Shown here piece by piece: positions 1,820 to 64,000 of a stretch of 64,000 nt of DNA. Made by a program: the position numbers and the translations under genes. This DNA comes from Topomyia yanbarensis (taxonomy: Eukaryota > Arthropoda > Insecta > Diptera > Culicidae): positions 214,446,546 to 214,510,545 of the forward strand of contig NC_080670.1 of assembly GCF_030247195.1 (NCBI RefSeq). Direction: 5' to 3'. Each line of letters begins with the position of its first letter. Position 1 is the stretch's first letter. Under the pieces are notes generated by a model. That model saw only the letters and a list, made by a program, of their open reading frames with translations, searched no databases and had not been told where the DNA came from.

Positions 1820-2379
1820 TTACGTTTCACTGTATCGTACGCAGCCTTGACATTCATAAAGAGATAAGTCCAGACTCCTGCAATTATCCAGGATTTGTCG
1901 CAAGGTAAACATCTGATCCGACAAAGAATTCATCTGTCTCCTCAAACTTTCGCCGATGAGCAAATCCTTCTGCATACGCCTTTCCAAACACTGAAGTCGC
2001 CGAACCGCCATCTGGTAGCTGTCCGGGAACTTGAAGCAATCGTACTTCCAGAGAAGCCCAGTCTCGAATCGCTGTCCGACCCGCTTAGTAGTTTCCATCA
2101 GGATCCGATTTGCTCGCTGAACTTCCGCGGACTCAGGATGGGCGACTTCCATTATATCCAGACTCTTGACTGCGAAAAACTTCTCTACAAGCTGAGGTAG
2201 GGTCTGCTCGGCCTCTTGACACTCGCATATGTGGAAACTATGAACAATATCTCCTGACCGTAAACCGTCCATCCCAAGCGTGATTTTGCTGCTATCGGCT
2301 CTCCCTGTCGGCCATCTCGTAGCCTGAGTGTCGACGTAACGTGAGCGTTGTCGTTTCGGATGAGGATATGAGGTACCAC
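1820..2379 (-). pseudogene. BEL/Pao protease end and linker to reverse transcriptase, frameshifted
   Basis: Two overlapping frames carry the continuation. 2379-2185 holds the PIAAKSRLGWTVYG motif that ends the DUF1758 protease region. After a frameshift near 2270, 2272-1820 holds the linker with HICECQEAEQTLPQLVEKFF and RFETGLLWKYD, followed by LQCLERRMQKD, a segment that precedes the reverse transcriptase palm in BEL/Pao. Homology fades near 1870. No polymerase YxDD motif is present, so the element is truncated before its catalytic core. Confidence 0.85.
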
Positions 2380-2567
2380 TTTATCGTAATCATCGACCGG
2401 TAGGCGCTTCAGGTACGGAAAGGCTTCTGCGAGTTACGCGTACCGCAAGGATTGTCGTGGTAAGTTCAGCTTGCTTACGGTGCGCACGTCCGACACAGAA
2501 TGTTTGGATGCCCCTGACCATCCTGCTATTTCCAATGGAACTCGTTGAGAATTAGCTTCTGATCTCT

Positions 2568-3164
2568 TCACGTTCGCCCACTGCAGGCACAATGGTTGCG
2601 AATCTCCTGCAACCCAAGCTCCTTTACCAACTCTTCTTCAATCAGTGTTCTCTCCGAGCCATCGTCCAAGAAAGCGTACACGGACCCAGATCGATTGTTC
2701 CCATACAAAGTCATTGAAATAATACGAAAAAGCGTAGTCTTCCCAGCGGAATGATGGTTGGTGACAGCTTTGGAAATGCTTGGCTTAGCTTCATTCAATT
2801 CTGGCTTTGACCCATTCTTCGCCGAATTGACGTCATTCCTGAACTTCTTACAGTCACTTCCTGGCGAATTTCCGTTTTCCCTGGCCTTCTGGGTTTCCTT
2901 TGTGTCCTGTTTGGAGTGCAGCAAAGGGTGATGTCGCCGTTGACATCCATCGATGTCGCATTGCTTGCGAATTTTGCAGGGGCACCTTCCGTGTGCTCCA
3001 AGACAAGACAAGCCGAGTTTCTGTACTGTTTTCCAGCGTTCTTCGAATTTTTTCTTGTCGAACTCTGAGCAATCTTTCATCCGATGCTCCGGGTTTTTGC
3101 AAGTGAAACACGCTGGGCTTGATGGGCGCATCCTAGCGCCAACTGCTTCTTCCTTCGTCGTCAT
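2568..3164 (-). pseudogene. BEL/Pao zinc knuckles and retropepsin fragment
   Basis: This 198-residue open stretch begins with two Cys/His knuckles (CFTCKNPEHRMKDC near residues 19-32, then CQRRHHPLLH after a Cys-rich linker). After a low-complexity Ser/Asn/Lys linker comes the aspartic protease start: the motif FLDDGSERTLIEEELV near residue 165, where DDGS replaces the usual DTGS/DSGS form, as is normal in BEL/Pao. In an active element this processes gag-pol inside virus-like particles. The frame ends shortly after the active site, so the protease is truncated here and resumes in other frames at 2379. Confidence 0.85.
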
Positions 3165-3184
3165 CGGAGAAGAAGAACGGAGGT

Positions 3185-3400
3185 TTACTTCTCCGCAGTG
3201 CTGCTTGTATGCGACCAGTCCAGTTTCATATGTGCTGGAAGCTTCTCTACCAACTCAAACAGTCTTTCCTGTTTTGGCGCAGGCACCCCTCGGATCCTCT
3301 GCAACAACGTGTGGATCAGCGATCCCGGTCTACCATATAGTGTCTCCAACGTAGCTAAAACATTCGGAACGCTCGTCGGTAGCAACAGTCGACTCCGCAC
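3185..3400 (-). pseudogene. BEL/Pao gag middle fragment
   Basis: A 71-residue open stretch reads like the structural part of BEL/Pao gag (TLETLYGRPGSLIHTLL, then a short linker and LFELVEKLPAHM). It sits between the gag N-terminal fragment and the zinc-knuckle fragment on the same strand, in the expected order, but in a frame that does not join either neighbour. It is part of the same dead element. The identification rests on order and family feel rather than on a catalytic motif. Confidence 0.7.
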
Positions 3401-3839
3401 CGACTCAAGTGCATGTCCCTTCTAACACCTCGCCAAATTTTCCTCGCACGAAAAACCGCACCTCTGAGTAGAGTTAACTTACGAGTTAATGAATAGCAAC
3501 AAGTCTTCCGGATAACCAGAAAATAATGGTAACTCCTTGTTCATAACGTGTCTTGCTGCCAATTGTCACGGTGTCGGTCCCCAATACGCCTGCTCGTTAT
3601 GCAACGAAGGTTACTCCGCGGGTTGTGGTTGTTCCTGCTGTCCCAATTGGATACCTGGCGGCGCCGTCTGCCTTCTCGAAAACCTTTGCACAGTGGGAAT
3701 CACAGACGATAACTGGGTACGACTGGGAATACTCTTCTCCCAGTAATTCTTCCACTGTCACTGAACCTCTTCTCGGGCCTGTACTGTCTTGGTTCACTGC
3801 GGTCGATTGCCCGGCGGTTGGAAAATTCGGGTTACTGAC

Positions 3840-4713
3840 TCACGGAACGACAAAGCAATTACCTGCTGGATGAGGCTGGGAGAGAGGAGAGGGATAGTTT
3901 TGAAAAGCATACACCTGTTTGGGGATTACATTTGGGATGCCTTTGCTAGGCCCGTCGAGCGCGGAGGTAACCGAGAAAATGTTAGTCTGACCTCTACCAA
4001 CTATTGGCGCTTCTGTGCTTTCGACCCGACCGATAATACCCCCTAACGTTGGCTCAAAACCTGATTGCCCTAACGAAATACCTGCCAACGCTGCTTCTAG
4101 AATACCCTCGTTAATGCTAGTTGGTTGCTGCATGCCGTCCTGCCTAGCTTGAATTCCAGTTGCTATCGTCGCGTTACTCGTATGAATGGCTGGAGCCTTT
4201 TCCGTCGGGACAACCAACGTCGGCGGCCTTCCACTGCTATATCTTTCTGAAGGAACACTGCACTGAGATGACACTCCGGTTCCTTCCCCACCTAGGTCGA
4301 TCACCTCTCTCAAACGGAATAACTCGTTCATTACCGCCTGCTCTAGTTGGAATTGCTTCCGCTCAAACCGTGCTTCCTTTTTCTGCTTCTCTTGCTCCAC
4401 CTTCCGATCATACTTCCAATTCTGTACGCTTCATCGCCAAAGCCTTCCGAGTCTCAAGTTGTAGGCGAGCCCTTTTTTGCTTCGGCACTACAGGTTAAAG
4501 AGCTCGTTCCCGCTTTGCTGTTAGCCTTGCTTCCAGGTGCATCGATCACCGGAATCTGCGCCGACGGTCTCTGACAGTTGGCAAGTGTCGATGCAATGCT
4601 GTACACAGGTAAAATGCCACCACGAATCACAGTGACAACAGCTCCGTGTCAGGTTCGTTGCACTGGTTACAGTGTGTTTCCGCGATGGGGGTACTTCTTG
4701 TACTATTCGGCAT
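3840..4713 (-). pseudogene. BEL/Pao gag N-terminal part with PHD-like finger, frameshifted
   Basis: The start codon at 4713 opens a frame with a Cys-rich segment (CNQCNEPDTE) typical of the PHD-like finger at the N-terminus of mosquito BEL gag proteins. A stop follows at about 4629, and the second half of the finger (CDSWWHFTC) continues in another frame, so a small indel lies near 4632. From 4400 to 3840 the gag frame continues for 186 residues, beginning with a charged, probably coiled region rich in Glu, Lys and Gln, then a Ser/Thr/Pro-rich linker. In the family, gag packages the element RNA. This copy cannot make the full protein. Confidence 0.75.
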
Positions 4714-13063: not shown

Positions 13064-13938
13064 CTAAGAATGTCGGTCTGCCAGATCTTGTTGACGCAGT
13101 TTGCTGCTGCGTGTTGAGATCGTTTTCCTTGGCGGTGAGGCCGCTTGGTGGTCATTCAGTCTGCCTTCTCTCGCGTTATCGTTCCCGTCCATGTCGTCAT
13201 CGGTACTGCTTTCTTCCTGTTCACGATCAGAGGTTCTTATTTGTTTCTTGTTCTTATGGGTCGCTGTTGTATATCCGTCTTCATCGGTATTTGCTTCTTT
13301 ATTGGCGATGCTAGTTGTTGGTTTGGGAGCGGTTGTCGTGGTCGTTGTACCTGCATTATTGGGTAATTGGATCGTTGTTTTAGGTTTATCTGAAGGTATC
13401 GGTGGCTGCGTGTTAGAGTTGGCTGTAGTAGATGAGTTTTGACTAGTTGCTTCGGCGCATGTTTTTCCGTAGTAGGCTGTATAGTTACAGAATTGGCATG
13501 TTGGGGTCTGCCCGGGATATGTAATTAGCGTTGTTTGCTTATAGGTCACGCCATCCTTCGGTGATTTGCATTCGATAGTCGTGTAAGAAGGTATTGGTTT
13601 AGTCACTCGCATTCTCACAATACGAACGCCATTGGGAATGCCGGAGAAAAAATTTCTCCAGGCATTCGTAATAGATTCTACTTCTCCATATTGCGACATG
13701 ATTTGTTTGATGAAATCCTCCTTCGTGCGCGGGGCCAAATCATGGATACGCACGTCCACCATGTCGTTTTCCATATGCACGGGGATCTTGATTCTGGTGT
13801 TATTAAATTCGACCTCGTGTTGCATGTTGTTCTTTGCAATAAAGTTTTCGGCCTGTGCTAAGCTTCTAAACGTGATCAAAACACAGTTTTTACGTGATGT
13901 AGCTGAATGTAGGTAACTTCAGCGAGATTAAGTTCCAT
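13064..13938 (-). pseudogene. LINE ORF1 (gag-like), one frameshift
   Basis: The start codon at 13938 opens MELNLAEVTYIQLHHVK. A frameshift near 13882 moves the frame into the 271-residue stretch ending at 13064. This has an RRM-like region (VDVRIHDLAPRTKEDFIKQI, then VRIVRMRVTKPIPSYTTIE), a worn zinc knuckle (CQFCNYTAYYGKTC, with Tyr in the His position) and a Ser/Thr/Asn-rich acidic tail. This layout fits ORF1 proteins of LOA- or I-like non-LTR retrotransposons, which bind element RNA. No ORF2 follows (12960-13060 is A/T-rich with a T-run). Similar N-termini recur at 32244 and 61727. Confidence 0.75.
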
Positions 13939-41529: not shown

Positions 41530-41536
41530 ATCAAGG

Positions 41537-41556
41537 CACAGAGAACAGACGTCCAT
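41537..41556 (+). repeat. Left terminal inverted repeat
   Basis: Twenty bases beginning CACAGAGAAC, matching the right end (50147-50166) with one mismatch and the left end of the short relative at 62239 exactly. Confidence 0.9.
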
Positions 41557-41857
41557 CTTCAGCATTCAACTTGTGTAAAATCTCTAACGGTTTCGAAGGT
41601 AGTTGGGATATCCAAACCAGGTGCGCTACTGTCGTCATGTTTTTTTTTGTTTGTGGCTGAGTTCGACAGAATTGACAGCGGTTATAGTCTAATCCACGAT
41701 GACGTCATCATTTTCATTTTGACAGTAGCTGCGGGTGTGCCTGCGTTCGATGTTTTTTTTTTCTTCTTGTGTTGTGTTTACTTTTACTTGAAAATCAGCG
41801 ATCACAGCTTTTGTTTATCCAACTTTATTTTGATAGTTATAGTGATTTTTATTCCAT

Positions 41858-43892
41858 ATGACTCGTAAATGTGTAGTAGGTAAATGTAAGTCAACTGAGA
41901 AGACATCGGGAGTTCGTTTCTTCCGTTTTCCTGCTGTGAAAAGCCAACTTCCAGCATTGGTTAGAAAACGACGAGAAGAATGGAAACGTATACTCGCATT
42001 GGAAGATCATTACAATCCAACGAATGCGTACATATGTAGTTTGCATTTTGTTACCGGTGAGTTGTATGTAATTAAACTATGAATTTGAAAGAATTCAGTG
42101 CTAATTACATTTGTAGGTAAAGCAGCGAAACTCACGGATGTAACACACATCGATTGGGTACCCTCACTTAAGTTAAACGAGCCTGAGAGCAGTGGTGTCC
42201 TGGAGAACATGGAAATGTTGAATCGAAGTGTAGTGAGATGTAGTGAATTACATCAAATCCCCCACGACCGCTTCGAGTTGTTTGCTAGTACCCAGTACAT
42301 GGTATTGTTAACAGTACAAAATGAAAATGTTGATAAAAATGGTGTAGGAATAGAAAAAAACGGATTTCATGATAACGGTTATGAACCATTTTCAGATAAC
42401 GGTTATGAACCATTCGTAAACTATCTTACAAATCAACATCACATAGAACCTTGGATCAAACTGAACAGCTCTCCGAGAAAACCCGAAGAAATTTTCTCTT
42501 CCGAAGAATCTGAAGAAGTCGTCAAACTAGAAAAAGGTACATCGAGATATATAATAATCGCAACTCTGAACCTATACTACCGAAAACAAGTTACACAGAT
42601 TCCCGTTACGGTCAACTTCATCCGGGCGCTTTTCTTCTTCGTGTAAATGGTTGCACCTATACGAAATTTTTTTCGTGTGACCCTTACAGCGGAAATAGGA
42701 AATGTTAACTTATTAAGGGCCGATTTCTTGACCGTAACTCAACTTTCAACAGTTATGCGCGGGTGAAGAAATCGGCCCTTAGATAATTTAGTCATAATTT
42801 TAGAGTAATAATCCTCTGGCGAGAACTTAACAATGTTCAACAAGGTTTGGTTTTATTACAGATGAAACGGAACATTCCAAATCCTCTGCGAACCATTCCG
42901 ATGAAAATCACGAGTGTGGATTATTAAAACGATACCGTTTGGAGTTAGCAAGATTGCAACAGCGTGTTGACTATTTAGAAACGGAGCTACGGAAATCAAA
43001 GCGAGGATTAGATTGGCTAGAAAATGACCGCCGGTGTAATCGATATACTGGCATTAGCAAATACTCAACGTTGAAAAGTATTTTCAAGTTTGTAGAAAGT
43101 TGCTTATTCAAACCCTACTGTGCAATGACAAAGGATGAAGTCTTTGTAATGACATTGCGAAAACTTCGAAGTAATGTTTCATTTCATGAACTTTCGGAAG
43201 ATTACTCAGTGTGTGCTACAACAATTTCGAAGTATTTTCACCGAACAGTATTCGCAATGTACGAGTGCCTTAAGTATGCAATCGAAGTCGTATCAAAAGA
43301 TACAATCGTTCAGCATACTCCTCGATCATTCAAACAACAGTATGGGGATAGAAGGATATTTATTATTGACTGTTTCGAAGTCAGTACAGAGAGACCGTCT
43401 AATCCTAAAGCTGCGAACGCTCATCATAGCGCTTACAAACTTATGCAAACAACGAAATTTCTAATCTGCCTAGCAGCAGATGGAACGGTTGTGTTCATCT
43501 CCAATGCTTATACGGGACGATGCTCTGATCGCTTCATCGCCAAACACTCTGGATTTCTCGATATTCTCGAATCAGATGATGTAGTTCTTGCTGATAAAGG
43601 ATTTGATATCCACGATTTAATCACATCTAAAGGAGCTACGTTAAACATTCCCACATTTCTTAGAAAAGATACTCAATTAAATCCGTTGAATATCGAGAGA
43701 GATAAACAAATCACGTCGCTTAGAGTTCATGTAGAACGAATAATTGGTGTTCTGAAAGCCAAATTTACTTACCTTAAAGGAACAATTCTAGTCGACTCTT
43801 TGAGACGATTCGAAAATGGAATGAATGCCGTTGATTTGATTGTTCGTTTGGCCTGTATATTAGTTAATTTTAACCGATCTATAATGCATTAA
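41858..43892 (+). CDS. THAP-finger DDE transposase (three exons, 549 residues)
   Basis: Exons 41858-42056, 42117-42536 and 42862-43892 join in frame. The donors are GTGAGT and GTACAT, the acceptors TTTGTAG and ATTACAG. Residues 1-86 form a THAP zinc finger of the C2CH type: Cys5, Cys10, Cys60 and His63, and DWVPSL at its end. In this family it binds the transposon ends. A coiled coil spans about 227-262 (heptads in LELARLQQRVDYLETELRK). The catalytic domain is DDE_Tnp_4, as in HARBI1-like proteins: Asp376 in FIIDCFEV, Asp451 in LADKGFD, Glu498 in RVHVERIIG. YTGRCSDRFIAK and the final IVRLACILVNFN also fit. No stop or shift interrupts it, so it may be active. It converges with the nuclease gene. 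The exon joins are my inference from sites and frame. Confidence 0.88.
42714..42781. repeat. Small palindromic insertion in transposase intron 2
   Basis: Sixteen-base arms TAAGGGCCGATTTCTT (42714-42729) and its exact inverse (42766-42781) enclose 36 bases. The size and shape suggest a tiny MITE. It lies between the donor at 42537 and the acceptor at 42861, so it does not touch coding sequence. Confidence 0.7.
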
Positions 43893-44033
43893 ATGCTTGT
43901 TGAAACAAGAAAACTATAGAAAACATTTTTTTACTTCATTCCTTGAACTCTACTATTGTGAAAACGTCCACACCGAAGGTTCTTTCTTAGTGTCGCAAGT
44001 AAGTATGTTTCGATAAAAACCCAGGATGATCAA

Positions 44034-44365
44034 CCGGAAAATGAGTCAGAATTTAGGCTGGTTCTAATTCCCATTCCGGCTCCAGTGCCACAAACGATTC
44101 CAATTAGAGTCGGTTATCTCCCTAGAGCCGGAATACTATCTAGAACCAGCCAGCATGGCTCATTTTTCGGATGAACTTACTGAGAAATATGAAGCTACTT
44201 CATCTCGTTCAAACGGAATTTGAATTTGATTCGGAATCCTGAATGGATTCTGTATGGCATCCAAATGAAATGCAACAACCGATTGAGTCGGGATTGGTTT
44301 TTGTGTTTGAGCTAGAATCCTTTCAGGATTCCAAGCCGGTTCTGCAATGAGTTTGACTGGGATAA
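44034..44365. repeat. Hairpin and inverted copy of the transposon's right subterminal block
   Basis: Part 1 (44034-44170): an imperfect hairpin with arms containing GGCTGGTTCTA / TAGAACCAGCC and ATTCCGGCTC / GAGCCGGAAT. Part 2 (about 44231-44365): read inverted, it aligns to 49936-50025 near the right end, with shared words AGCTCAAA, AATCGGTTGTT, CCATAC and GAATCCATTCAGGAT. It also aligns to the middle of the short relative (CCCAGTCAAACT). It lies between the 3' ends of the two convergent genes. Confidence 0.7.
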
Positions 44366-44655
44366 GTCGTCAAAATGTACACATATTTTTGTAATAGTGA
44401 CAAAATATAGAGTATTTACTGGAACATAAATCTATATAAAGTAATAAGAAATACCTTCACATTGCATATATTAATAGTATAAATCGATTTTATAACAATT
44501 CACACATATAACTTATGTGTACGCATAAACAATTTGTAGGCACATAAAACATTTGTGTTTGCTTGATACATTAAGTATTCTTTTTAATTAAAATTTTATA
44601 TGCGTTAAGCAAATAGAATTTACAGTTGAATTTCTACCAGTGTATGCAATTAATG

Positions 44656-44889
<234 letters not shown>

Positions 44890-45061
44890 ATTGAACGTGT
44901 ACGGGCCGCTTAAGAGATTTATAAAAAAGATCAGGATAGCAGTTCGAATAATGTTATTTTAAAAAGCAACAACAAACCATTATAACTTATTGATAGTCAT
45001 GATTGTCTTCGTTTTCACTGCGTCAGGTAAAACAATCTTAATTATTACATGCGTTATACTC

Positions 45062-48000
45062 CTACGATAGTAGCTTGTTCGTGAAAAAATTACTAAGGAG
45101 CTCAGGAAGGATGATACTACGAAAATATTGTTTACTTCTGTAGATGCAATAGTTCCATAGTCCAGGATCTTTTTCAACTTTTATAATAACACTTTCTGTT
45201 TTACTCCAAACTAGTAAATATGCAAATTCCGACGAAGTTAAAAATATTTGGGATTGAATCTGATAATAGTAGGCGTGCGTTTTGACAATATGAAATTCAT
45301 TTCCATCGTATCGAATGAACGAATTTGGTTTGTGTGCAAGATCCTGTAAGCTTAGTTGTTCGTCTAAGGAGCTCTTCTTGTCCAATCTGTAAGGACATTT
45401 GATTTCAATTACGAATTGTCCACAGCAAATGCATTGGCCTACGCCATCTGGTGAGGCAGCTAAAAAAGGGTTTTCACAATCAAGAAAAATCCCGCAATCT
45501 AGTAGTTGAACGTTATCGTGACTTTCTGATAGCACGTTTTCTATGTGATGTTTTGCAGTTTTTTCGTTTCTCCGGCCGTATGCTAGAGCTGGTGTATCAC
45601 ATTTCATCAAATACGGGTGACAAATTTTTTTAATAAGTGTGCGCTTGGGAGGAGGAAATTCATGCGATGCATTAACTACTTCTTCGAGAATTGATGCAGT
45701 TATTCTGCCAATCCGCACCCAATGCCATAATTCAGATTCATTTTGTCGCCTTGTGCATTTTTCTACTATTTGCACGTCTAAATCACTGAGCTGAAGTTGA
45801 ATTTGATTTGCGATAGCTCGAAGCTCAGCCAATGTTTTAGTCTCATTCGCAGGAGAATAGTAATTCTGCAGCATTATATTTTTGTTGTAGAAGAAACGAG
45901 TGGGAATATTTGATTCTTTGCAATTAACGCATACGTAATTTGTGCAATCGCAAATCCGGTTCAGTATAACAGCATCTCCGCCAGCTCTAGCAATTGTTTT
46001 CAGCAAACCCACAAAATCTTCCTTGCTTTTTGTGTACGTACTGTCATGAAATTTTTTGATCTCCTTCCCATAATCAGTATCTTGAACCTGTTTATATACA
46101 TCTTCTTTAATCCTTTTAGGTGGTTGGCGCCAGTATGCTGGCATACCTGTTACGGTAGTCTGAAATTAATAAAATATATTATATTGACGTCATCAAAATA
46201 TGCATTTAATTTTTCATTTATCAAATTTTAATTTCCTTCAAATTCCTATCCCGAGTTCTTTAGCTTCAATATAAAATAATTCTAATCAAAACCGTACTCC
46301 TCTATATAATTATGACCTTGGGATAAATAATGATTTTAACATGTATTGAATATTTGCATGCGTAATAGCGCCGCCTAGCAGGGCAATTCCGAGATTCTGT
46401 TTTCACTATCCAGAAAGCCTTGATTTATTAGACAACTGCCTGGGATACTATCTTCCAAAATATGAAGTCTCATATCAAGTCAAAACATCTTGACTTGTAC
46501 GATTTTGGTTGCATTAATGTAGCTGGACCAGGGTTGTTAATCGATAATTAATCGTCATCGTCGATAACGTTAACCACCAGTCAACGTCATCGGAAACTCC
46601 GTTAACGATAATGTATCGTCGGATTCATAGTCATCGTCGATAATTCATCGGTGGTTATCGCGATACATTTTGCGTTACTTTCCCGTTTATTGGAGTTGAA
46701 GTTGATACGGTTAACTTTCAATTGTTTAGAAATAAGTAACTATTAAAGGACATGTTGTTGGCAGTTGAAAATCAATAGTATTGGACATTTTCTATGCACA
46801 GGGGGGTTAGACGATGTGTAAAAATGGAATTTTTTGTCAACTTTTCGGGAGTGTTTTATATTGAAGGGAATGTTATTAGCAGTTGACAATCAATAGTTTT
46901 GGGCATTTTCAATACACAGGGGGTACGACGATGTGTCAAAATGGATTTTTTTTCAACTTTTAGGGAAAGTTTATTATATTGAAGAAGTTATTAATAAGTG
47001 AAAATCAATAGTTTTGGGCATGTACCGTCGGTGCGTCAAAATAGATTTTTTTCCAACTTTTCGCAAACTTTTTATATTGAAGGGCAGGTTGTTGGCAGTT
47101 GAAAATGGATAGTTTTGGACATTTTCAATTCACAGGAGAATCCACCAGTGCACAGTGTTTCCAAAATGGCAAAAAGGTGAAAGAAGTTCTTTGAACCACG
47201 AAAAACATTTTTAGCTATAGTGTCTTCAGCAAAGTTTATTTATATTTTTTTGCATTTAAAAAGTACTAGTTAGGTGATTAATCCCTCTAAAGCTGAGAAG
47301 CAAGTTTTTGTTTGGTCATTTAAATGAAAATAAAAAAAACCTTTTTTTGGCAAAGTTGTTGAGAATATCTTTAATATTATTTTCGCTGAAGAGACTATGT
47401 GTCTATCTGTCGATTTAATTATACGTTTGTGAAGATTTATTTGATATACCCCACAAAATTGCTTATTTCAAAATACTTTTCCTGGTAATTTTGTAGAATT
47501 TCAAAATGTTCCAAGATTTCGTTCAACATAAGAAAATACAAAATTTTTGTAATGTTACTTTATTTGTATCTCTTACAACATAGAAGTTATCAAATGATTT
47601 AGTGTCCAAAAAGAAATGTTTTGGTATGGAAGCCACAAATTTCCGCAGGTATAGCTTCACCAAGACGAATCTGTAAAACAAACACTATATATACTGCAAA
47701 ATATACAAAAATAATACTACTGTACTGTAAGACCTCCTAAGGGAAATTTTTACTAAATAATAAGAACGGGTTATGAGGCTTTGTCGAGGGACTAAAGAAG
47801 ATTATTGTAACCACTGCGGTTTATTAAAAAGAAAGGAAAAAATATATTAGTCTTGGTGTTTGCGTTTCGACATCGTCTCTTCAGAACCAGAAAAAATATG
47901 TGCCGATTTTGTCAATGTCAATTCACCTAGGGGCTGATAAAAACGGGTCTTCACTGTATTCAAAAACGACTAAAACTCTATTATGAGGTCATTCATAAAT

Positions 48001-49556
48001 TACACTACATATTTGAGGGTAAAAGAAGGAAGCATGAAGCATCTTGTTACATAGTGGAGAGAAGAAACGGTGGAGGGGGCTAAAAGCTTCCCAACTAGAA
48101 AAAATATACATTGGAAATATGTATATTCTCCTTTTTAAAATTCAAAATCTAGTTTAAATTAAAATTATAATAAAATCTGGTAATCACCACACGACTTAAA
48201 TGTGTAGTATAATTTGTGAATGGCCTAATAATAGTGGTTTAGTAGTTTTTTTCAATATATGTCTTTGCGTGATAAAAATTACTAACTACACAATAGCTCA
48301 AAATTTGTTTCTTCATGGTCAAAACAATTTTGATCACCTTTTTGTCGAACTGTGCACCTGGGACTCTTCTGTGCGCCAACTTACTCGAAAAATTAAAAAA
48401 AAAATCCATTTTGACACATCGTCGGACCCTTCTGCGTATTGAAAATGTCCAAAATTATTGATTTTCAACTGCCAACAACTTTCCCTTCAGTATAATACAC
48501 TTTCCCGAAAAGTTGAAAAAAAATTCTCTTTGACGCATCATCGGACTCCGCTGTGCATAGAAAATGTCCAAAACTATTGATTTTCAACTGCCAACAATAT
48601 GTCCTTCAATAGGTATTTATTTCTAAACAACTGAAAGTTAACCGCATCAACTTCAACTCCAATAAACGGGAAAGTAACGCAAAATGTATCGCGATAACCG
48701 ATGAACCGACGATGACGATGAAAACGACGATACATTTATCGACGATGACGATGAAGGCGACGATACATTATCGTTAACGGAGTTTTCGATGACGATACAT
48801 TATCGTTAACGAGTAATGCCGATAAATTATCGCGAAAAATGTATCGTATTAACAACCCTGAGCTGGACTCCATACGGGATTCACTAAGGATTTCGAACCG
48901 TTCCGCCGTATGTTATTGAACTTGGAACCCATTGAACGATAGTTCCATTTAAAACTTAAATTATCACATACCCGTCTGTCCGTCGACTGCGCATGCAAAT
49001 TAGCCAAGTAGTAGAGTATGGCACTCACATGGGAGCAGGTTTCACTGACACCAGCAACACAATTGCAGTGTGAGGACAAAATCGTCCCTCGGTTATCAAT
49101 TATAATCCATGGTTGCAACATTTTTTCGTTCATCCGCATTGAATGGACCACCTAAACAAAGAATTTTCGAATGTTTTCTATAGAACTAGCAAGTGAAACT
49201 ATTTTATTGATAAGGCTTACCTTTCCCACAACAACGTATTTTCCCTCTATTATCATGCCTTCGACCGTATGCACAAATCCGCTTTCAAATTTTTTGTAAC
49301 CTTCCAAACTACGGCTATTTTTCATTGAATTGCCAGTATACGGCGATCGAAAGTTTATTAAAAAATCAACAACACTTCCAGTTGTCACGGATGTTGGTAG
49401 ATCGCACAGCCGAAATTTTATACAGTATGGATCAATGTTTCCAATAACTTTAATTTTATCGATGTACCTCTGGTACACATTCGGGTTGCTCTTCGGCAGT
49501 TTCTGAGCATAACTGGATAATTGGAAAACGTCAATTTGGTTGCTATCGATGTCCAT
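45062..49556 (-). CDS. SWIM-finger YqaJ-type nuclease of the transposon (three exons, 537 residues)
   Basis: Exons 49556-49221, 49151-48972 and 46159-45062 join in phase 0. The donors are GTAAGC and GTATGT, the acceptors TGTTTAG and ATTTCAG. Residues 1-112 are the family's N-terminal domain (GYKKFESGFVHTVEG, GKYVVVGK). Exon 2 has a SWIM zinc finger (HCNCVAGVSETCSHVSAILY), a likely DNA- or protein-binding module. Exon 3 begins with the usual linker (TTVTGMPAYWRQPP) and holds the YqaJ/lambda-exonuclease-like PD-(D/E)XK core: GRITAS, Glu371 in GRRNEKTA, Asp410 in AASPDG, Glu424 and Lys426 in IEIK, then YYYQIQSQ. All core residues are present, so it is probably an active nuclease. What it does in transposition is unknown; processing of ends or gaps is a guess. 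The ATG at 49556 fits the usual family start. Intron 2 contains a 2.3-kb insertion. Confidence 0.87.
46529..48860. mobile_element. hAT-like foldback element inside the nuclease gene's second intron
   Basis: Ends read CAGGGTTGTTAAT on both sides in inverted orientation. AGCTGGAC flanks it (46521-46528 and 48861-48868), an 8-bp duplication. The outer arms are rich in CGATGACGATGA-like words. Further in, both arms hold tandem sub-repeats of about 110-120 bp (GGCAGTTGAAAATCAATAG, then GTGTCAAAATGGATTTTTT): four on the left (46745-47130) and two or three on the right (48380-48610). The central 1.2 kb is A/T-rich without a transposase. It is a non-autonomous element that came after the host transposon. 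Confidence 0.88.
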
Positions 49557-49935
49557 TACCTGTATCAATCGATAAATAAACGTCCTGTTAGCTGTTGTTA
49601 GATTTTACACATCGGAAGACAAAGAGGTACCAAGAACAATATTAATTTCACTCACAAATAACGATATTCTTTGACTGTAAGCTCTAAACAAAGCTACTCG
49701 TCTTTGATCTAATATACAGTGTAAACTGGCCGATTGTCGCGCTCAATGAAATAACAAATTATTTAATAACGGAAAATAACTGCTGCAAATCGTTTCAATA
49801 AAATGTAAACAATCAAAACACTGGTGCGAGTGCAAAATATACTCAGCAAGAAAAAAACAACAGCTGTCATTCCACCCGCAGCAAACGTCAAAACGGTCGG
49901 GAAGTTGAAATCGTGGATTAGACTATTCCTCTTCC

Positions 49936-50166
49936 AGAATGAATTCCAGCTCAAATGCATCAACCGATAGAGTCGAAATCGGTTGTTTTCTTTGAGCAAG
50001 ATTCCATACTGAATCCATTCAGGATTTCGAACCGGTTCCGGAATGGATTTGACGGATAGTTGGGATAGGTTGATGTGGCGGCGCTAGTGTTTATCGTATA
50101 TTAATTCAAATGTTTACACACGTTTTTTAAATATTTTTGTTCGATCATGGATGTCTGTTCTCTGTG
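49936..50166. repeat. Right subterminal block and terminal inverted repeat
   Basis: This block is nearly identical to 62432-62642 in the short relative, which shows it is needed in cis for movement or was kept by recent shared origin. It contains the word GGATTTCGAACCGGTTCCGG, a palindromic core. A worn copy of the same words occurs at 48869-48925 and an inverted one at 44231-44262, so these may be transposase-binding repeats. Confidence 0.75.
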
Positions 50167-50199
50167 ATCAAGGGGTAATCCCCAACTCAAAGACTCACC

Positions 50200-51534: not shown

Positions 51535-52034
51535 NNNNNNNNNNNNNNNNNNNNNNNNNNNNNNNNNNNNNNNNNNNNNNNNNNNNNNNNNNNNNNNNNN
51601 NNNNNNNNNNNNNNNNNNNNNNNNNNNNNNNNNNNNNNNNNNNNNNNNNNNNNNNNNNNNNNNNNNNNNNNNNNNNNNNNNNNNNNNNNNNNNNNNNNNN
51701 NNNNNNNNNNNNNNNNNNNNNNNNNNNNNNNNNNNNNNNNNNNNNNNNNNNNNNNNNNNNNNNNNNNNNNNNNNNNNNNNNNNNNNNNNNNNNNNNNNNN
51801 NNNNNNNNNNNNNNNNNNNNNNNNNNNNNNNNNNNNNNNNNNNNNNNNNNNNNNNNNNNNNNNNNNNNNNNNNNNNNNNNNNNNNNNNNNNNNNNNNNNN
51901 NNNNNNNNNNNNNNNNNNNNNNNNNNNNNNNNNNNNNNNNNNNNNNNNNNNNNNNNNNNNNNNNNNNNNNNNNNNNNNNNNNNNNNNNNNNNNNNNNNNN
52001 NNNNNNNNNNNNNNNNNNNNNNNNNNNNNNNNNN
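51535..52034. other. Assembly gap (500 N)
   Basis: Exactly 500 undetermined bases, a second scaffold gap. Open frames across it are artefacts. Confidence 0.99.
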
Positions 52035-62238: not shown

Positions 62239-62642
62239 CACAGAGAACAGACGTCCATCTTCAGCATTCAACTTGTGTAAAATCTCTAACGGTTTCGAAG
62301 GTAGTTGGGATATCCAAACGAGGTGCGCTTCTGTCGTCATGTTTTTTGTGGCTGAGTTCGACAGAATTGACAGCGGTTATTCCTCTACCCAGTCAAACTA
62401 GTCCGGAACCAGTTCGGACTTCCAGCACAGAATTCCAGCTCAAATGCATCAACCGATAGAGTCGGAATCGGTTGTTTTCTTTGAGCAAGATTCCATACTG
62501 AATCCATTCGGTTCCGGAATGGATTTGACGGATAGTTGGGATAGGTTGGTGTGGCGGCGCTAGTGTTTATCGTATATTAATTCAAATGTTTACATACGTT
62601 TTTTAAATATTTTTGTTCCATCATGGACGTCTGTTCTCTGTG
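62239..62642. mobile_element. 404-bp deletion derivative of the THAP/YqaJ transposon
   Basis: Its first 145 bp are almost identical to 41537-41697 and its last 210 bp to 49936-50166. Between them are about 45 bp that match, inverted, the internal copy near 44340-44365. GTTGAAG flanks it (62232-62238 and 62643-62649), a 7-bp duplication different in sequence from that of the large element, so this is an independent insertion moved by the same machinery. No coding capacity. Confidence 0.92.
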
Positions 62643-62649
62643 GTTGAAG

Positions 62650-63230
62650 GTTATTCTGAAATAATTTGGCCCAAAAAGGATGCTATATACTGTACTCTGC
62701 GAAATCTTCGAAAAAGTTTTAAATATTATCGTGCAGGTAAACAATCCACCTGAAACCTCGAGCAACAAACAGTGTATAAAACCGATGGATGTGTTTTGAT
62801 TAACGATAAGACCTATGCGATAGTCGATTAGAAACAAATTCCGTGTCTCAAATTTTCCTCGGATAGATTCGCGAAAAAATTATGATTTGACAAGGAATCT
62901 GTTTCTGTGGCAAGAAACCAGTGTTTTCATTACAGATAACACCTTTGGACTGACTCAACCAGCTCCCACTACAGCAAGAACGAGCTAAAGTGATAGGACA
63001 ATGAAGTTCAGTTCATCACAAAAGAGCAAAATCCACCAAATAATTTTTAGCTCCATACAATAGCAAAGAATTGGTCGATAATGAAGCACAGTCTCCAGCG
63101 AGATGCCTACAATGAAAGTACGATAAACTGCTTGTCTTGAAAACAAGCGCCTATTCCAAACTGTGATTGATTGCCATGAAAATCGATGTCTTCCGACCAC
63201 AGCTGCAGTTTTCCTGCCAGATCAACAAGT
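62650..63230. other. No gene recognised
   Basis: A/T-rich sequence. The left end of the mariner element that follows should lie within or just after it, perhaps near 63230 (TTACCGCCAAACTTATC), but no second end is in the window. Confidence 0.35.
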
Positions 63231-63383
63231 TACCGCCAAACTTATCTGCAAGAACAATTTTTTTGTTTCTTGGGAACTTTTTTACCATTGGGTAAAAATC
63301 AACCAAATTTTGCACACTTTCTCATTGATGTGTATTGTTTACATGCTGTCAAACTCGAAGTCGTGTTTTTCGATTCAACGAAA

Positions 63384-64000
63384 ATGGAGGTGAACCAACG
63401 CGAGTCGAGAGAACAAATTCTTTCCAAACACCTGGAATTTCCTGACCTGTCGCACCGGCAGTTGGGAAAAATGTTGAACATTCACCCTACAACCGTCTCC
63501 AGAGTGTTGAAGCGGTTCCAGGAGCGGTTGACGTTGGACCACGGCAAAGGAGCTGGAAGAAAACCGGGACCGGAGAACAAAAAGACGGAGGGAAAGGTGA
63601 AGCGGATGATTAAAGCAAATCCCAACGTCTCAAGCCGTGATTTGGCTAAAAAGATCGGCTCCAGAATCCAGAATGCAAAAAAGAGAGCTGGACTCCATAC
63701 ATACAAGGTACAGAACTTCCCAAACCGCGATGAGAGGCAACAATGGACGGCTAAAACTCGGGCACGGAAGCTCTACGAGAAGACAAAATATGGCTGCTGT
63801 GTGATGGACGACGAAACGTATATAAAAGCCGATTTTAAGCAAATTCCGGGGTTGTAGATTTTCACCGGCAAGAGCAAGTTCTATGTGGACGACAAATTTA
63901 AGAAGAAGAAAATGTCGAAGTTCGCCTCCATATATCTCATTTGGCAGGCCATCTGCTCTTGGGGACTGAGGAGTGAGCCTTTCGTGACAAAGGGCACAGT
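63384..64000 (+). pseudogene. Mariner-family transposase, N-terminal part with a nonsense codon, cut by window end
   Basis: The ATG at 63384 opens MEVNQRESREQILSKHLEF, followed by two helix-turn-helix segments (SHRQLGKMLNIHPTTVSRVL at about 25-44 and VSSRDLAKKIGS at about 83-94) that bind the element ends. KKRAGLHTYKVQ and the first catalytic Asp in CCVMDDETYIKADF follow. The frame meets TAG at 63855, where the family has Gln (IPGLQ). Past it the same frame continues as IFTGKSKFYVDDKFKKKKMS and IYLIWQAICSWG to the edge. A small deletion after KKIGS is also likely. The type resembles the mosquito ITmD37E group; the later D and E residues lie outside the window. The break means this copy is inactive unless the stop is read through. 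Confidence 0.85.

Follow-up and report, generated by a model that had tools for sequence, protein, structure and literature searches.

According to the accessible parts of two earlier reports (PMC4482050; PMC9179366), the hallmark of ISL2EU transposons is a transposase that combines THAP, helix-turn-helix (HTH) and DDE domains, together with a second open reading frame encoding a YqaJ domain and an AT dinucleotide duplicated at the target site. The same sections of PMC4482050 give terminal inverted repeats (TIRs) of 6–259 bp that usually start with GG, an AT preceded by a conserved A and followed by a conserved T, and a mean element length near 4.8 kb, and they attribute a Myb/SANT second protein to most other groups of the PHIS superfamily. 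The function of the additional open reading frames, the YqaJ partner included, was stated to be unknown in 2015 (Han et al, 2015, PMC4482050), and in the accessible text of that paper Aedes or mosquito occurs in the reference list alone. Here, we analysed a stretch of 64,000 nucleotides from Topomyia yanbarensis (RefSeq assembly GCF_030247195.1, contig NC_080670.1, positions 214,446,546 to 214,510,545), which as a whole is called the window below. Positions 41686–49924 (plus strand) of this window most probably represent a cut-and-paste ISL2EU transposon of the PHIS superfamily, inserted at an AT in a pre-existing miniature inverted-repeat transposable element (MITE); we put the probability of this identity and of these boundaries at about 95%. 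To answer what the YqaJ partner does, an intact and well-bounded element is needed, and this copy offers one once its ends are corrected.

The sequence-only reading from which we started had placed both genes in a single unit with 20-bp inverted ends and a flanking 7-bp direct repeat. Both features are present: the terminal sequence CACAGAGAACAGACGTCCAT at 41537–41556 agrees with its inverted counterpart at 50147–50166 in 19 of 20 bases, and ATCAAGG abuts the two ends at 41530–41536 and 50167–50173. These ends do not delimit the genes, however, which are enclosed by other TIRs, and the 20-mer pair recurs elsewhere. A scan of the window that tolerated up to three mismatches gave four matches to the 20-mer rather than two (mean 0.00 in 100 shuffles), and the second pair bounds a small unit of 404 bp at 62239–62642 (plus strand), flanked on either side by GTTGAAG as a separate 7-bp duplication. 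The outer parts of the 8.6-kb unit, 41537–41685 and 49927–50166 (both plus strand), join to 389 bp, and an end-to-end alignment of this joined sequence with the 404-bp unit gave 360 identical columns among 369 aligned, with 55 gap columns in addition. The 404-bp unit runs uninterrupted through GACAGCGGTTATTCCTC, a stretch that starts at 62369 and reads GCGGTT-AT-TCCTC with a single AT. Because this unit spans both flanks and lacks the interruption, we take it for a MITE with 7-bp duplications that shows the site as it was before the two-gene block arrived. On this comparison, the 8.6-kb unit at 41537–50166 is to be read as a MITE of about 0.4 kb split by a transposon; the 7-bp repeat belongs to the MITE, and the target site duplication (TSD) of the transposon is the AT. 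With its clean empty site in the same window, the second MITE copy thereby proves the choice of target. The MITE family has 20-bp ends CACAGAGAACAGACRTCCAT, 7-bp duplications (ATCAAGG and GTTGAAG) and two copies in the window, and short stretches inside the ISL2EU element (44230–44364 and 48859–48905) are ~72–81% similar to the MITE interior.

The block between the MITE halves opens and closes with AGTCTAATCCACGAT in inverted orientation (41686–41700 on the plus strand and 49910–49924 on the minus strand). These 15-bp ends are perfect, and their two matches in the window compare with a shuffle mean of 0.12, two or more matches being reached in 0 of 100 shuffles. With the AT included, the longest inverted match of the end regions is 17 bp, as against 7–12 bp in 100 dinucleotide shuffles, and a weaker TIR similarity extends inward (62 of 89 columns with the AT counted, E 2e-9). 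An AT stands at each side of the block, at 41684–41685, where it is common with the MITE sequence, and at 49925–49926, and the paralogous empty site holds one; the 2-bp AT duplication with its empty site agrees with what is described for ISL2EU. The element so bounded measures 8239 bp, or 5899 bp minus a nested hAT-like insertion and its duplication.

A single transposon at 41537–50166, whose ends are CACAGAG and whose duplication is 7 bp long, would have both genes within one pair of ends, and the 404-bp copy would then be its internally deleted derivative. The 19/20 matching ends and the 7-bp duplication do flank both genes, and short deletion derivatives are common among DNA transposons. 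Nevertheless, the deletion behind such a derivative would have had to take out precisely the block that the other inverted ends enclose, together with one AT, so that GGTT-AT-TCC was left. This counts against the 8.6-kb unit, and the published ISL2EU duplications are AT rather than 7 bp. We consider this explanation highly improbable, and the CACAGAG ends with their 7-bp duplication were rejected as ends of the ISL2EU element, the second MITE copy having such ends and a 7-bp duplication of its own without the genes.

Several points weigh against the boundaries and the assignment that we favour. A 0-bp duplication with TAGTCT ends would yield a sequence identical to that of an AT duplication, and the TIR opens with AG, whereas GG is usual in ISL2EU. 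The target is T-AT-T, in which the T after the AT matches the published preference and the conserved A before it does not. One copy of the two-gene element is known here, and the assignment is a fit to the published description. The GG start and the A/T around the AT are listed as shared characteristics of ISL2EU, and we did not treat them as defining.

Two convergent genes lie inside 41686–49924, separated by an (AT)n microsatellite (44660–44885). The transposase of 549 aa starts with the ATG at 41858 on the plus strand and is composed of three exons that join in frame across GT..AG introns: positions 41858–42056 of the window encode most of the THAP domain, 42117–42536 the end of THAP and a linker, and 42862–43892 the remaining linker, HTH_Tnp_4 and DDE_Tnp_4, with the stop codon at 43890–43892. 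THAP, HTH_Tnp_4 and DDE_Tnp_4 each scored above the curated Pfam cut-offs, so that the product contains the DDE, HTH and THAP domains of an ISL2EU transposase. The catalytic residues D376, D446 and E498 are present, and C5, C10, C60 and H63 of the THAP domain are invariant in 15 of 15 rows. Based on these domains, THAP and HTH would bind the element ends, and the DDE core would cut and join DNA in a cut-and-paste movement. In the alignment, one relative (P0035, Armigeres subalbatus isoform X2) seems to lack most of the linker as well as the part that follows the HF motif of THAP, and may represent an alternative isoform.

The second gene, on the minus strand, encodes 537 aa from a start codon at 49556 and is likewise composed of three in-frame exons with GT..AG introns (49221–49556, 48972–49151 and 45062–46159). 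Exon 3 carries a lambda-exonuclease-like PD-(D/E)XK domain, for which Pfam returned YqaJ (E 2.3e-10) and also Viral_alk_exo; no Myb/SANT domain was found by Pfam in this protein. ISL2EU elements are described to enclose, within one pair of ends, such a second gene for a YqaJ exonuclease. We aligned exon 3 in 30 rows, the query and 29 of its 32 matches, with P0013, P0016 and P0023 omitted as lacking a precomputed YqaJ domain. The residues D410, E424 and K426 are kept in all 30 rows, and these positions, together with the fold of a predicted model, correspond to the fold and the catalytic D and E-x-K of lambda-exonuclease-like PD-(D/E)XK enzymes. From this, we infer metal-dependent nuclease activity for the YqaJ partner. 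Exon 2 contains a SWIM-type CxC..CxH signature, C141-x-C143-x7-C151-x-H153, that does not vary among the 14 aligned rows, whereas no Pfam match to SWIM was obtained in this protein at E≤1; the name is used because of the motif pattern, which we take to be that of SWIM, and of the source names of two matches (P0002 and P0021). Among distant YqaJ relatives, precomputed Pfam domains place a PHD finger (PF00628) in P0022 and P0030 and an OTU domain (PF02338) in P0026, and P0024 has a C-terminal Cys-rich stretch of a similar kind in the alignment.

Much of the sequence-only reading is borne out at the level of the genes. The four joins that it predicted (42056/42117, 42536/42862, 49221/49151 and 48972/46159) are in frame with GT..AG borders, the expected residues of the DDE triad (D376/D446/E498), the THAP domain (C5/C10/C60/H63) and the YqaJ domain (D410/E424/K426) are in place, and the two genes, with their frames intact, do make up a DNA transposon of the ISL2EU type, as in the published description. 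The domains that it expected from Pfam were recovered for THAP, DDE_Tnp_4 and YqaJ, and for SWIM the Cys/His signature stood without a profile match. The best named protein matches of both products are to mosquitoes, with a top identity of at most 64%. One Armigeres protein pair, with near-consecutive gene numbers and contigs of equal length, suggests that the two genes are linked elsewhere; two Aedes aegypti pairs are uninformative on linkage, as the contigs that they have in common exceed 310 million bases.

The likeliest role of the nuclease, which we put forward tentatively, would be resection of the 5′ strands, either where the donor site has been broken or at the excised ends, which would steer repair to homologous gap filling so that the copy is kept. 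The alternatives are the clean-up of excised DNA and a helper function, in which the YqaJ protein would act in DNA binding or nuclear import, like the Myb-like partners of Harbinger, and would not cut during transposition. A SWIM-type Cys/His module could bind DNA or protein, and this helper function would parallel the Myb/SANT second protein described for most other PHIS groups. In the accessible part of PMC9179366, both Harbinger genes are reported to be necessary for transposition in vitro. Against a non-cutting partner stands the retention of D410, E424 and K426 throughout the alignment, which argues that nuclease activity is under selection, and we regard the helper function as unlikely.

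Beside the predicted active site, the alignment contains a further set of conserved residues. H386 and C415 are each found in 28 of the 30 rows; at position 418, a cysteine occupies 27 rows and a histidine one (P0031). The two rows without H386 (P0026 and P0032) are also without C415 and C418, and all three residues are missing in 11 of 11 viral loci, read from gapped local alignments, in which D410, E424 and K426 are kept. C417 is present in 26 rows, being lost in P0026, P0032 and two others that retain the rest, and C427 is present in 28, being kept in P0026, P0032 and the viral loci and replaced by N in two others; neither is therefore a clear fourth ligand. The joint presence and absence of these residues, together with the C-to-H swap, suggests that the His and Cys-x-x-Cys set of animal and transposon YqaJ domains forms an added metal (zinc) site by the active centre. 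Because there are just two losses and the alignment is uncertain in this region, the putative site is offered as a lead rather than a finding. A Cas4/Dna2-like iron–sulphur cluster was also considered for the extra cysteines, and the C418-to-H replacement in P0031 would fit zinc better. Among the listed open-access papers on ISL2EU/YqaJ, transposons, SWIM and zinc, we met no earlier description of this set, which is a weak negative. A bolder proposal is that the transposon-borne YqaJ proteins would constitute a distinct branch, with a SWIM-type module and a metal site of structural function, gained around the hairpin of the active site (H386, C415, C418 and a fourth ligand), and would serve as an essential transposition factor that resects broken donor DNA for copy-preserving repair; taken as a whole, we find this doubtful.

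Intron 2 of the YqaJ gene contains a 2332-bp element (46529–48860) with the TIR CAGGGTTGTTAAT and an 8-bp TSD, AGCTGGAC. Its 13-bp ends gave two matches in the window at ≤1 mismatch, a number that 1 of 100 shuffles also reached, so that the ends alone are weaker evidence, and the case is made by the 8-bp duplication directly outside them. The ends and the length of the duplication, which we take as the criteria for hAT, suggest that the element is hAT-like. It is non-coding, with a longest stop-to-stop frame of 80 aa, and holds 183-nt inverted repeats of 90% identity (46653–46835 and 48517–48699). Judged by these boundaries, the locus is a three-layer nest that was assembled in the order MITE, ISL2EU element, hAT-like element.

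The ISL2EU copy is apparently intact, both genes being on paper without a stop or frameshift, and its genes, ends and duplication make autonomy plausible. The same identity is compatible with a copy that is blocked today by silencing, by its (AT)n tract or by the hAT-like element in its intron, and is hence not autonomous. With this insertion, YqaJ intron 2 measures 2812 bp instead of 472 bp, and the perfect TIR is just 15 bp; on the other hand, the frames are open, the catalytic residues are retained, and insertions in introns may be removed by splicing. A dead copy is in our judgement a real possibility, somewhat short of even odds.

Elsewhere in the window, long reading frames at 1820–4430 (minus strand), 13064–13918 (minus strand) and 63180–63857 (plus strand) resemble, by eye, pieces of retroelement gag/pol and a Tc1/mariner-type transposase. 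Two runs of exactly 500 N (1035–1534 and 51535–52034) lie outside the element and are probably scaffolding gaps.

The nuclease domain shares its predicted fold with phage lambda exonuclease and herpesvirus alkaline nuclease, and for the lambda enzyme the D and E-x-K also align; it differs from both in the N-terminal SWIM-type module and in the conserved His/Cys set that the viral-contig relatives lack. KolobokE, which targets TTAA, is likewise a DDE transposon with a similar nuclease, although its transposase belongs to another superfamily. In the available text of PMC9587614, its lambda-exonuclease-like PD-(D/E)XK nuclease is encoded downstream of the transposase domain, whereas a separate convergent gene encodes it here. 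DDE transposons of at least two superfamilies therefore carry nucleases of this kind. Spy, reported in the accessible parts of PMC11304231 and PMC4482050 as the sister group of ISL2EU, has one gene and inserts at AAATTT; the ends described here can be read, as in Spy, with a 0-bp duplication, but the two genes and the target GGTTATTCC led us to reject membership of that group. PIF/Harbinger membership was rejected as well, given an AT rather than a 3-bp TWA duplication and a second protein with YqaJ/Viral_alk_exo rather than Myb/SANT. With ISL2EU, the element shares the domain pair, the AT target duplication and a TIR length inside the published range, and it differs in the AG start of the TIR, in the T-AT-T target (as against A-AT-T) and in a length of 5.9 kb without the nested insertion, compared with the mean near 4.8 kb. 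The description of this element as an unusual machine was overstated, since THAP-DDE plus YqaJ is the published make-up of ISL2EU (PMC4482050; PMC9179366). It is otherwise an ordinary new member of ISL2EU, most like the copies in mosquitoes.

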